A DNA stretch of 55,136 bases, taken from contig JALZWN010000006.1 of assembly GCA_023300235.1 (NCBI GenBank), forward strand, positions 1 to 55,136, in the 5' to 3' direction. The notes under the pieces were generated by a model, which worked only from the letters and a program-made list of their open reading frames with translations, made no database searches and was not told where the DNA came from. The DNA is from Mariniblastus sp. GTDB taxonomy: Bacteria > Planctomycetota > Planctomycetia > Pirellulales > Pirellulaceae. Shown piece after piece: positions 7,463-44,120 of the stretch. The position numbers and the translations under genes were made by a program. Numbering within the stretch: position 1 is the stretch's first letter; every line of letters begins with the position of its first letter.

Positions 7463-7734
7463 AATCTCTCACTCGTTGTCGGCTTTCCTCTGGCGTAAAC
7501 TTACAAATCCGCTCTCAGGTGATTATTGGCAAACCATCAGAACTTACCAACACGGATAGGAACTCCAATCTGGCAATCACGGAAATGGCCCAAGGCAGGA
7601 ACGATTCTATTTTACGCCAGCACGCGTTCCAACGCCACCCGATGGATCGATCTGAAATGTTCATGAACGGTCGCCGCAGTATCTGCACGACACGAACTTG
7701 GAGATGGCTTGTGCCAAACTCTTTTCCGTGGATT

Positions 7735-8529
7735 CTAACCAGGGTCAACGGTTTTCACGTCAAGTCTTAGTTTTTGTAGATCGCCCTTGAAAATAGATCG
7801 GTAGGACTGATCAAAATTCTGCACCGCAGCACGTGCTTTGGACGTAGTCCATTGACGAGAATAATAGGTGGTGCCTTCGCAGATCGATTGTTGATCGACA
7901 TTATTTGCTTCGCCGAGTATCGCTTTGCCTATGCAGCGTACATACAAGTCGTGTGCATGTTGCATCACTTTAATGTGTAGCTCGTTCAGATCTTCATCAC
8001 CCTGCAGCGGAGTAAATTCGGTGCCTATCAGATTGCCCGAATCGATTCCTTCGTCGATCCACATTACTGTGTTACCAATCAGATGGATTTTCTGTTCAGC
8101 AAGGCACCAGTTAGTGCAGTTTGGGCCGCCTTTGATGTAAGGAGAAAGTCCGGTGTGTAAATTAAGGATTTTGCCTGTGGGGGTTTTGCTGAGCATTTTG
8201 TTTTTGATCATTCGCGTACCAGAAACCGCAACCAATTCTGGGGATTGAGCGATCGCGAAATCTATCGCAGCTTGACTATTAATGTTTTCAACGTTCAGCA
8301 CATTCGAGTTGATAAGCGAGGGGTGGCGGCGGCGACAATCAGCTTGCATCGATTTCCAAGCACTAGCTAGTGGTGATTGAAAGAGTCGCTTGCGGATTCG
8401 TGACAGCAGGTTTTTGTTTTGAGACGGCCGTGATTCCAAGATAATGCCCGCGACGTCAAATTTTTCCTGCAACAGGTTTGCCAAGGCAATGTGATGGGGA
8501 GCGTTGCCGATCCAAAGCAAAAGTTTCAT
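7735..8529 (-). CDS. formyltransferase, probably sugar N-formyltransferase
   Basis: A 264-residue protein with the formyl_trans_N fold of methionyl-tRNA and sugar formyltransferases. The catalytic triad can be read as Asn123, His125 (ILNLHTGLSPYIKGG) and Asp163 (WIDEGIDSGNLI). It lacks the Fmt C-terminal tRNA-binding domain, and a true fmt is present at 39.5 kb. This one therefore more likely uses 10-formyltetrahydrofolate to formylate an amino sugar. Its start overlaps the deacetylase stop by four bases (ATGA), implying translational coupling: deacetylation could expose the amine that is then formylated. That order is inference. A damaged paralogue lies at 6043-6372. Confidence 0.82.
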   Translation of the reverse strand: MKLLLWIGNAPHHIALANLLQEKFDVAGIILESRPSQNKNLLSRIRKRLFQSPLASAWKSMQADCRRRHPSLINSNVLNVENINSQAAIDFAIAQSPELVAVSGTRMIKNKMLSKTPTGKILNLHTGLSPYIKGGPNCTNWCLAEQKIHLIGNTVMWIDEGIDSGNLIGTEFTPLQGDEDLNELHIKVMQHAHDLYVRCIGKAILGEANNVDQQSICEGTTYYSRQWTTSKARAAVQNFDQSYRSIFKGDLQKLRLDVKTVDPG

Positions 8530-39451: not shown

Positions 39452-40426
39452 ATGCGAATCGTTATGTTCGGCACCGGCCCGTTTGCTGTGCCCACCTTTG
39501 AGGCTTTGCTGGCCAGTGATCACGATGTGTGTGCGTTGTACACTCGGCCGATCGCGGATTCGGGCAATCGCCGAAAGTCAGCCGCCAATCCAACTCGTGA
39601 CGTTGCTGAAGCCAAAGGGTTGGTGATTCATGAGCCGATCGATGCAAACGCTGCGGATTCGATTGCGGTGTTGCAGGAGCTGCAGGCAGATTTATTTGTT
39701 GTTTGCGATTATGGACAAATCCTTTCCCGAGAATGCCTTGGATCGGCAAAAAAAGGTGGAATCAATTTGCATGGTTCACTGCTGCCAAAGTACCGTGGTG
39801 CGGCGCCGATCAATTGGTGTTTGTACAACGGCGACCAAGTGACCGGGATTACGATCATTCACATGACTGCAAAACTTGACGGCGGGCCTTGCTTGGCGAC
39901 TCGCGAATTGCCCGTCACGGATCAGGATACCTCTGAATCGATCGAGCCAAAATTGGCGCAGCTGGGCGTCGCCGCGGTGGTGGATTCGATCGGTTTGCTG
40001 GGAAAATGGGACGGCGAGGCGGCGATCGGAGAGTCGCAAGATCAAGCGTTGGCGACCAAGGCGCCGCGGTTGAAAAAGTCCGACGGGTTGTTGGATTGGC
40101 AACGTCCTGCAGTGCAGTTGTTTAATCAGATTCGAGCGTTTCAACCTTGGCCCGGAAGTTTTACCAATTGGCATGCTCCTAAGAAAAAACAGCCGATGCG
40201 ATTGATCGTGCATCGGGCGATCGTGGTCGACCGTGATTCGCTTGAAGCACCGCCTGCTGCCGTTGATGCCGGGCAAGTAGCGTTTTGTGATAAAGAAAAA
40301 TTGCTGGTGCAGACGGGCGATGGTTTGCTGTCGATCGAAGCTGTCCAGCCGGCCGGTAAAAAAAACATGCCAATCGCCGATTTTTTGCGAGGCAATCCGC
40401 CAGCAGTGGGCGACCGGTTTATTTGA
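39452..40426 (+). CDS. fmt: methionyl-tRNA formyltransferase
   Basis: A 324-residue enzyme that formylates initiator Met-tRNA using 10-formyl-tetrahydrofolate. Motifs seen are MFGTGPFAVPTFEAL at the N-terminus and INLHGSLLPKYRGAAPINW, with the catalytic Asn/His. ITIIHMTAKLDGGPCL holds the catalytic Asp and is followed by the C-terminal tRNA-binding domain (PRLKKSDGLLDW onwards). It forms an operon with def, which acts on the product of this step. It is full length, unlike the sugar formyltransferase at 7735-8529. Confidence 0.95.
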   Translation: MRIVMFGTGPFAVPTFEALLASDHDVCALYTRPIADSGNRRKSAANPTRDVAEAKGLVIHEPIDANAADSIAVLQELQADLFVVCDYGQILSRECLGSAKKGGINLHGSLLPKYRGAAPINWCLYNGDQVTGITIIHMTAKLDGGPCLATRELPVTDQDTSESIEPKLAQLGVAAVVDSIGLLGKWDGEAAIGESQDQALATKAPRLKKSDGLLDWQRPAVQLFNQIRAFQPWPGSFTNWHAPKKKQPMRLIVHRAIVVDRDSLEAPPAAVDAGQVAFCDKEKLLVQTGDGLLSIEAVQPAGKKNMPIADFLRGNPPAVGDRFI

Positions 40427-42703: not shown

Positions 42704-43264
42704 ATGCCAATTCTTGGCAAAGAAAACGATATTTATCCTGCGGATTTGCTGACCGATGCGCGGCCATTCGAAGACGATCAGGCGATTTGGTATTCGGTGT
42801 ATACGATGTCGCGGCGCGAAAAGGATTTGATGCGGAAGCTGTATTCGCAGAAGATTCGTTTTTACGGGCCGGTGATCACCAAGCGTTTTCGGTCGCCCAG
42901 TGGTCGGATGCGAACCTCTTATGTTCCGCTGTTCCCGAATTACGTATTTATGTTGGCCAGCGAAGAAGATCGTTATCAAGCGATGACGACGAATTGCATT
43001 TCCAAATGCACGCCCGTTCCTGACCCGGTACAGTTGGTCGAAGATCTTCAACGAATCGCCAACGTTGTCGCACTGGGGGAAGGTATGACTCCCGAGGCCA
43101 GATTGGTAGCCGGACAACCGGTGCGTGTTAAAAGCGGGCCGTTTGCCGGTTACGAAGGGCAAGTGATTCGTCGCGAAGGCAAGACGCGTTTTTTGTTGTC
43201 GGTGAGGTTTCTCGAACAAGGCATCTCGATCGCGATGGACGAGGCGTTGATCGACCCGCTTTAA
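42704..43264 (+). CDS. NusG-family transcription antitermination protein (RfaH/UpxY-like)
   Basis: A 186-residue protein. The NGN domain spans about residues 24-120 (WYSVYTMSRREKDLMRKLY, FPNYVFMLAS). A C-terminal KOW domain follows (VAGQPVRVKSGPFAGYEGQV, the KOW signature). The length and a divergent NGN suggest a specialised paralogue of the RfaH/UpxY type rather than the essential nusG, which is normally beside rplK. Such proteins bind RNA polymerase and suppress termination in long polysaccharide operons; the link to the 6-20 kb locus is inference. A 20-bp copy of the gene's end follows its stop in frame. Confidence 0.85.
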   Translation: MPILGKENDIYPADLLTDARPFEDDQAIWYSVYTMSRREKDLMRKLYSQKIRFYGPVITKRFRSPSGRMRTSYVPLFPNYVFMLASEEDRYQAMTTNCISKCTPVPDPVQLVEDLQRIANVVALGEGMTPEARLVAGQPVRVKSGPFAGYEGQVIRREGKTRFLLSVRFLEQGISIAMDEALIDPL

Positions 43265-43433: not shown

Positions 43434-43457
43434 AAAAAAGGACCGCCGAAGCGGTCC
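43434..43457 (-). terminator. intrinsic terminator of the selenoprotein-like thioredoxin gene
   Basis: Minus strand: GGACCGC-ttcg-GCGGTCC followed by six T. A 7-bp stem with a stable TTCG loop, 27 bp after the stop codon. Confidence 0.9.
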
Positions 43458-43483: not shown

Positions 43484-43912
43484 TTAAAGTGCGTTCTCGA
43501 TCAACGCGCGGATCTTATCTTTGCTCGCACCTTTTACTCGGCCAACTTCTTCACTGCCCTTCATGAGCACAAGCGTCGGCATGGCACTAACTTCATACTC
43601 TTGTGCAACATCCCTGCTTTGGTCGACATCGACTGCAACGATTTTTACTCGACCGGCGAACTCGCCAGCCATCATTTGAAGCCCCGGCTTCAATTTTTTG
43701 CAAGGCGGTCACCAGGTGGCAGTAAAGTCGACCAGCGTCAACTCATTAGCGGCCAATGCTGAAGCCAAGGCGTCTTTGTCGACCTCCATGACTTCGCCAG
43801 CAGCGCCGTCGTAGGCTGCCGGAGCTGCAGGGGCGTTATCAACAACCGCCTCCTCTCCGCAACCAAGAGCCAGTAGTGCGAATAGCGCACATACTGAAAG
43901 TAGATATTTCAT
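43484..43912 (-). CDS. thioredoxin-like lipoprotein with in-frame UGA at the active site (candidate selenoprotein)
   Basis: Read through one UGA, the frame gives 142 residues from ATG 43912, preceded by TGAGG. Residues 1-18 are a signal peptide with lipobox LALGC (Cys18), so it should be anchored in the periplasm or outer surface. The thioredoxin fold follows: ELTLVDFTATW at 57-67, UGA at residue 68 (bases 43711-43709), then Pro69-Pro70-Cys71-Lys-Lys-Leu. IVAVDVDQ and the cis-Pro in SAMPTLVLM (Pro112) come next. The UGA replaces the first Cys of the usual CxxC, giving UxxC. A hairpin with SECIS geometry begins 15 nt downstream. The frame is identical on both sides, so this is not a frameshift. 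A nonsense mutation is the alternative. Confidence 0.75.
43676..43693 (-). promoter_or_regulatory. candidate bacterial SECIS hairpin
   Basis: Minus-strand RNA UUGAAGC-CGGG-GCUUCAA, a perfect 7-bp stem with a 4-nt loop holding G at its second position. The loop starts 22 nt after the UGA codon, inside the 16-37 nt window accepted for bacterial SECIS elements. It encodes Leu-Lys-Pro-Gly-Leu-Gln at the same time. Confidence 0.6.
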
Positions 43913-44120
43913 TTTTTGCCTCACGATAGTTTGTCGCCGCCAGCAACCTAAGGTCTCACAGCGGCACGAATTGGAATAAGCTGATTGCACTTTAATCGGC
44001 TATTACGCCGACGGCAACCGAAGTATTTCCTTACAAAACTAAGCCTTAAAACAAAACGTATCCGCTTTATGCGGCCAGAGCGTACCCTTGTCTACCAATT
44101 TCTAGGCTGCCAAATTCAAC

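Follow-up and report, generated by a model that had tools for sequence, protein, structure and literature searches.

The window analysed here is a 55,136-nucleotide stretch of Mariniblastus sp. (contig JALZWN010000006.1, assembly GCA_023300235.1), and the gene of interest lies on its minus strand at 43484-43912, running from an ATG at 43912 to a TAA that ends at 43484. Translation of this minus-strand frame (43912-43484) with TGA read as selenocysteine (Sec, U) gave a product of 142 aa, interrupted by UGA only once, at residue 68; the plus strand of the same interval, read in frame, contained stops and no gene. The features of the locus are given below in window coordinates, with the basis of each in brackets.

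43484..43912, minus strand: coding sequence of a predicted Sec-thioredoxin lipoprotein, 142 aa, TAA stop (translation, PF00085, orthologue in the same-genus species G025)
43709..43711, minus strand: predicted Sec-UGA codon 68, which opens the UxxC motif UPPC (translation, homologue alignment)
43676..43693, minus strand: putative bacterial SECIS hairpin TTGAAGC-CGGG-GCTTCAA (hairpin scan, folding, identity in G025)
43859..43912, minus strand: predicted signal peptide and lipobox LALGC with Cys18, the putative anchoring residue (pattern match)
43577..43579, minus strand: codon of the presumed active-site cis-Pro, Pro112, within SAMPT (translation)
43919..43922, minus strand: Shine-Dalgarno-like GAGG, 6 nt upstream of the ATG (sequence)
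43440..43457, minus strand: intrinsic terminator GGACCGC-TTCG-GCGGTCC followed by TTTTTT, 7-bp stem, after the stop (terminator scan)

The UGA replaces the first cysteine of the CxxC motif (TW-U-PPCK, in the context ...FTATW-U-PPCKKLKP...VSAMPT...), and a profile search placed a thioredoxin domain (PF00085, E 5.1e-26) at residues 41-139, spanning the UGA. Solved thioredoxin-fold proteins also matched the window protein (best E 1.4e-23), and Pro112 within SAMPT is taken, from established knowledge of thioredoxins, to fill the cis-Pro role. The cut-off of the canonical thioredoxin equivalog TIGR01068 (96.8) was not reached, the score being 83.8 bits; judged by its sequence, the protein would work like a thioredoxin yet falls outside that equivalog. 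The N-terminus, MKYLLSVCALFALLALGC, reads as a signal sequence with a predicted lipobox (LALGC, Cys18). A PROSITE-style lipobox pattern matched the window protein and its G025 orthologue alike, and Cys18 is the probable lipid-anchored residue.

These results bear out a preliminary description of the locus, which had omitted the strand of the gene and had reported an in-frame UGA at residue 68 on the first CxxC cysteine, one frame running through both halves with a signal peptide and lipobox before the UGA and the cis-Pro SAMPT after it, a perfect 7-bp hairpin with loop CGGG 15 nt past the UGA (present at 43693-43676) and a clean terminator belonging to the gene itself (43457-43440, 7-bp stem and TTTTTT). 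The gene adjoins a NusG/KOW-domain gene (NusG/RfaH-like; 42704-43264, plus strand), and genes of polysaccharide-biosynthesis type occur elsewhere in the window. A cytochrome-c-domain gene lies about 5 kb from the Sec-thioredoxin gene and, in G025, the orthologue adjoins convergently an ORF with CxxCH haem motifs; neither observation is sufficient to assign a role.

At the threshold used, a close relative of the window protein was found in only one other genome (G025) among 241 genomes of the family, so that conservation of the UGA rests on two species. The G025 orthologue is 57% identical and contains one TGA, at the equivalent codon (VW-U-GPCK). A UGA that falls exactly on the catalytic Cys of an intact thioredoxin, and does so again in a second species, is not a chance occurrence, and the presence of the same UGA and hairpin in an independent species of the genus all but excludes sequencing error. 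Synteny between the two genes was looked for, and their neighbourhoods are not conserved. Past the UGA, purifying selection still acts on the coding sequence (NG86 dN 0.30, dS 1.12), while the YN00 ratio of 0.63 for this part indicates weaker constraint than the NG86 estimate; the frame past the UGA is intact, in agreement with the earlier statement that the gene shows no sign of decay.

Column 68 of the alignment of 144 homologous loci contains Cys in 128 and UGA in 16, the latter comprising the G025 orthologue and 15 members of a different, TrxA-like family found within the genus. More distant homologues recovered by contig search, mainly from Myxococcota, Chloroflexota and others, were at most 52% identical over the matched part and all have Cys at the site, which by sequence comparison is as expected for Sec/Cys replacement. 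The proposal that homologues be compared for Cys or UGA at this position was thus answered by UGA in the G025 orthologue and Cys in the distant homologues. In the phylogenetic tree, whose root and several forks are weak, the window protein and its G025 orthologue form a clade (99/93) to which none of the genus's TrxA-like Sec proteins belongs; because of this separation, the two lines probably gained Sec independently. One row of the tree (L176) is wrongly labelled Sec, so that the tree overstates the number of Sec changes. This locus and L179 had been listed with a TGA in a phylum-wide search, and both were rejected as Sec homologues: in L176 the TGA precedes the domain and the active site carries Cys, and the alignment column shows Cys in both loci.

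The hairpin downstream of the UGA (plus-strand 43711-43709) has a perfect 7-bp stem, TTGAAGC/GCTTCAA, and the loop CGGG, the stem starting 15 nt and the loop 22 nt after the UGA, with a minimum free energy (MFE) of -7.5 kcal/mol when folded with short flanks, or -17.2 when 52 nt are included. A published bSECIS consensus specifies a loop of 3-9 nt, a stem of 4-16 bp, a G within the first two loop positions, 16-37 nt of spacing from the UGA to the loop and an MFE of -7.5 or lower (PMC13188914), and the hairpin agrees with all of these rules. The SECIS search suggested for the region downstream of the UGA ended in a structure that satisfies the published bacterial rules (PMC13188914), and no other hairpin within the first 40 nt after the UGA does so. 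Comparable hairpins (perfect stem of at least 7 bp, a G as first or second loop base, and the loop 16-37 nt past the TGA) follow 16 of the 1874 TGAs of the window (0.9%), so the hairpin by itself is weak evidence. An Rfam scan of the locus gave no SECIS family match; given how short and variable these elements are in bacteria, this outcome carries no information.

Comparison with G025 adds to this. A block of 18 nt, ATTGAAGCCGGGGCTTCA, is identical in the two species; it is the longest identical block of the gene and holds the hairpin, although codon-column shuffling matched a block of this length in 1236 of 20000 trials (~6%). Among conserved residues, the exact codon is kept in 5/5 cases within the hairpin vs 31/68 elsewhere (Fisher p 0.025). 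Identity of the hairpin in G025 and the retention of codons lend modest support to a SECIS role.

The genome encodes a full set of Sec machinery. The preliminary description had proposed a search for selA, selB, selC and selD, and all four were found in the same genome above curated cut-offs: selA (573 bits, 460 aa), selB (368 bits vs a cut-off of 242, in a complete ORF of 640 aa), selD (280 bits, inside a 737-aa ORF) and tRNA-Sec (69.8 bits vs a cut-off of 47; ARAGORN identifies it as tRNA-SeC, anticodon TCA). These genes sit on separate contigs. SelD forms the C-terminal half of its ORF (L011, 298-2511, plus strand), whose N-terminal half, judged by reading the sequence, resembles an NADH-dehydrogenase-type flavoprotein. 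Across the genus, tRNA-Sec was detected in 24/28 genomes, including 16/16 of good quality. The FdhA of this genome (L195, contig C222) has one UGA, at ATUHAPTVAGL, a canonical U-H-x-P Sec site, accompanied by a hairpin with a GGUCU loop, and by its sequence the formate dehydrogenase alpha subunit is a positive control for Sec use in this genome.

On this evidence the UGA is almost certainly read as selenocysteine, and two accounts that dispense with Sec must be set against this reading. A pseudogene or sequencing error, with Cys (TGC or TGT) as the true codon or with a nonsense mutation in a decaying gene, would need only a single base change from TGC or TGT to TGA, and the gene is indeed rare (2/241 family genomes); the same TGA in the independently assembled G025, in a protein just 57% identical, largely refutes this account, and the intact post-TGA frame under purifying selection and the full Sec machinery also speak against it, leaving it very improbable. 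Ordinary readthrough, or a code in which UGA is reassigned (e.g. to Trp), would make the hairpin incidental, and could draw on the fact that a SECIS-like hairpin is not very unusual (16/1874 window TGAs) and that this one does not share the GGUC loop seen in the genome's other candidates. Against it, TGA is the ordinary stop codon that terminates another gene of the window (39452-40426), Trp is encoded by TGG in the codon right beside the UGA, and Trp in the position of the nucleophile would abolish redox function. The site is, moreover, Cys in 128/144 homologous loci and UGA in the rest, and the genome has a dedicated UGA-decoding tRNA-Sec; we regard this second account as scarcely credible.

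A further alternative accepts the Sec reading and concerns only the hairpin, which would be a chance or terminator-like structure while SelB uses another element. The loop CGGG differs from the GGUC(U) of the other Sec candidates (FdhA, TlpA-like, TrxA-like), so recognition by SelB is not assured, and on the plus strand the hairpin is followed by TTTTTT and was flagged by the terminator scan. The coding (minus) strand, however, has no T-run after the hairpin, the hairpin is identical in G025 while the adjoining T-run is interrupted there, and the first 40 nt offer no alternative hairpin that conforms to the rules, which together make this alternative unlikely.

The locus is best described as encoding what is very probably a thioredoxin with an active-site Sec (UPPC) as its nucleophile, predicted to be lipid-anchored and extracytoplasmic, its UGA decoded via SelB and the 3' hairpin. 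The earlier reading as a Sec-containing thiol-redox protein is supported by the sel genes and by the UGA and hairpin shared with G025, and it withstood each of the refutation checks proposed with it. The position of the UGA, the intact domain, the full machinery and the conservation of UGA and hairpin are computed results; Sec insertion itself, binding of the hairpin by SelB, lipid anchoring, and the substrate and electron source are inferred. In the proposed mechanism, SelA would make Sec-tRNA-Sec using selenophosphate from SelD, and SelB loaded with Sec-tRNA-Sec would bind the hairpin just 3' of the UGA, so that Sec would be delivered at UGA 68 in place of termination by release factor 2. 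The exported protein would be anchored through Cys18, with Sec68 as the attacking selenolate and Cys71 as the resolving thiol, forming a selenenyl-sulfide/dithiol redox pair outside the cytoplasm. The mature protein may reduce disulfides or similar oxidised groups there, and would itself need to be re-reduced, presumably by a membrane thiol-electron carrier.

Sec thioredoxin (Trx, PF00085, UxxC) is an experimentally verified family of prokaryotic selenoproteins (PMC13188914), of which seven were tallied in bacteria in 2006 (PMC1794560). The window protein shares with known bacterial members the domain, Sec at the first CxxC Cys, a 3' hairpin and selABCD in the genome, and differs in a predicted lipoprotein signal, a minor point, and in having its closest Sec relative in one species of its own genus only. 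In planctomycetes, selenoproteins were reported in 2016 from the Porphyra isolates P1 and P2 (PMC4807772), the only relevant paper found on Sec in Pirellula-type organisms. Both isolates have a full Sec-insertion gene set and a Sec FdhA, and the sel genes of P1 are not co-localised, as in the window genome; in contrast to the present genome, no Sec thioredoxin appears in the main text of that paper (PMC4807772). The Trx-like 1 proteins of the GOS marine selenoproteome (COG0526, UxxC), abundant in marine bacteria (PMC2398784), are likewise UxxC thioredoxin-like selenoproteins but are metagenome sequences, whereas the window gene encodes a predicted lipoprotein and shares its genome with the sel genes. 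Anchored thiol-disulfide oxidoreductases of the TlpA/ResA type are similarly exported, membrane-anchored thioredoxin-fold proteins (the window anchor being predicted), although the window protein scores best against PF00085 and lies far under the ResA and TlpA cut-offs. Since Sec thioredoxins are established and planctomycete selenoproteins have been reported, the window protein adds a member to a known family. Taken alone it appears genuine and fairly ordinary, and specialists would hardly be surprised by it. Standard annotation cuts the gene short or misses it, which would make it one more hidden selenoprotein.

The genus as a whole looks rich in Sec, with two separate thioredoxin lineages that appear to use it. 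In the TrxA-like lineage, 15 genomes of the genus, G025 included, have UGA in place of the first CxxC Cys (L145-L154, L156, L161, L164, L167 and L169), and the hairpin GACTG-GGTC-CAGTC follows the UGA in 11/15. Sec and Cys alternate within this clade, and such switching inside one lineage would offer a small natural test case of the conditions under which Sec is worth having over Cys. The copy in the window genome, G000 (L144/L206/L219, contig C163, ~7546-7990, plus strand), has the active site CPPC, and its sister group in the tree consists of nine UPPC Sec rows (100/92). This copy has an extra tail ending GGGC-TGA-GGC-TAG, with the hairpin AGCGTT-GGTC-AACGCT 14 nt past the TGA, and possibly carries a C-terminal Gly-Cys-Sec-Gly tail, which would look like a shift of Sec out of the active site into the tail. 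A separate TlpA-like Sec candidate (L193/L220, contig C117) is exported and has a TlpA/AhpC-TSA-like domain with the motif W-UGA-PPC, its UGA being followed by the hairpin ACGAGC-GGTC-GCTCGT. Across 189 kb of stretches of this genome, in which some scanned loci overlap and matching TGAs are not itemised, only 2 of the 6322 TGAs have, at the appropriate spacing downstream, a GGTC tetraloop on a stem of 5 bp or more, and the two Sec candidates known to have such a hairpin, the TrxA-like tail and the TlpA-like UPPC site, lie in the scanned set.

The tail pattern, GC-UGA-G-stop with GGTC, was matched in 14/395 relatives: the window genome itself, seven matches behind short upstream frames (3-50 codons), which are probably due to chance, and six homologous matches. 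The six are DUF6428 proteins (PF20001, E 1.3e-37) from six genomes of the genus, all around position 1500 of their loci (L204 in G022, L205 in G019, L207 in G008, L208 in G016, L209 in G007 and L210 in G018). Their C-termini read ECGDTGC-UGA-GGN-stop, the codon after the UGA always being glycine with a variable third base and the stop being TAA or TAG; the hairpin that follows the UGA, AACCTCGGTCGAGGTT (AACCTC-GGTC-GAGGTT, 16 nt), is invariant while its surroundings diverge. Cys homologues of DUF6428 in Bacteroidota end in -GCC, the second Cys aligning with the UGA. These sequence patterns make it reasonably probable that Sec occurs in C-terminal Gly-Cys-Sec-Gly-stop tails of two unrelated proteins, DUF6428 and the TrxA-like copy of the window genome; the candidate tails end in the same four residues as mammalian thioredoxin reductase. 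If so, DUF6428 would found a selenoprotein family of its own, the tailed thioredoxin would represent an architecture not seen before, and bacteria would have arrived convergently, with their GCUG tails, at the ending used by thioredoxin reductase. A literature search returned no paper on DUF6428, as a selenoprotein or otherwise, and neither DUF6428 nor GCUG appears in a 2026 review of prokaryotic selenoproteins (PMC13188914). The new family would also be placed beside arsenic-operon biology: in Bacteroidota, DUF6428 lies between ArsR and ACR3 arsenite-efflux genes in 3/4 records, the fourth record being unannotated, and in the Mariniblastus-genus genomes it lies outside an arsenic operon, with neighbours that resemble RimO and a phosphatidyltransferase.
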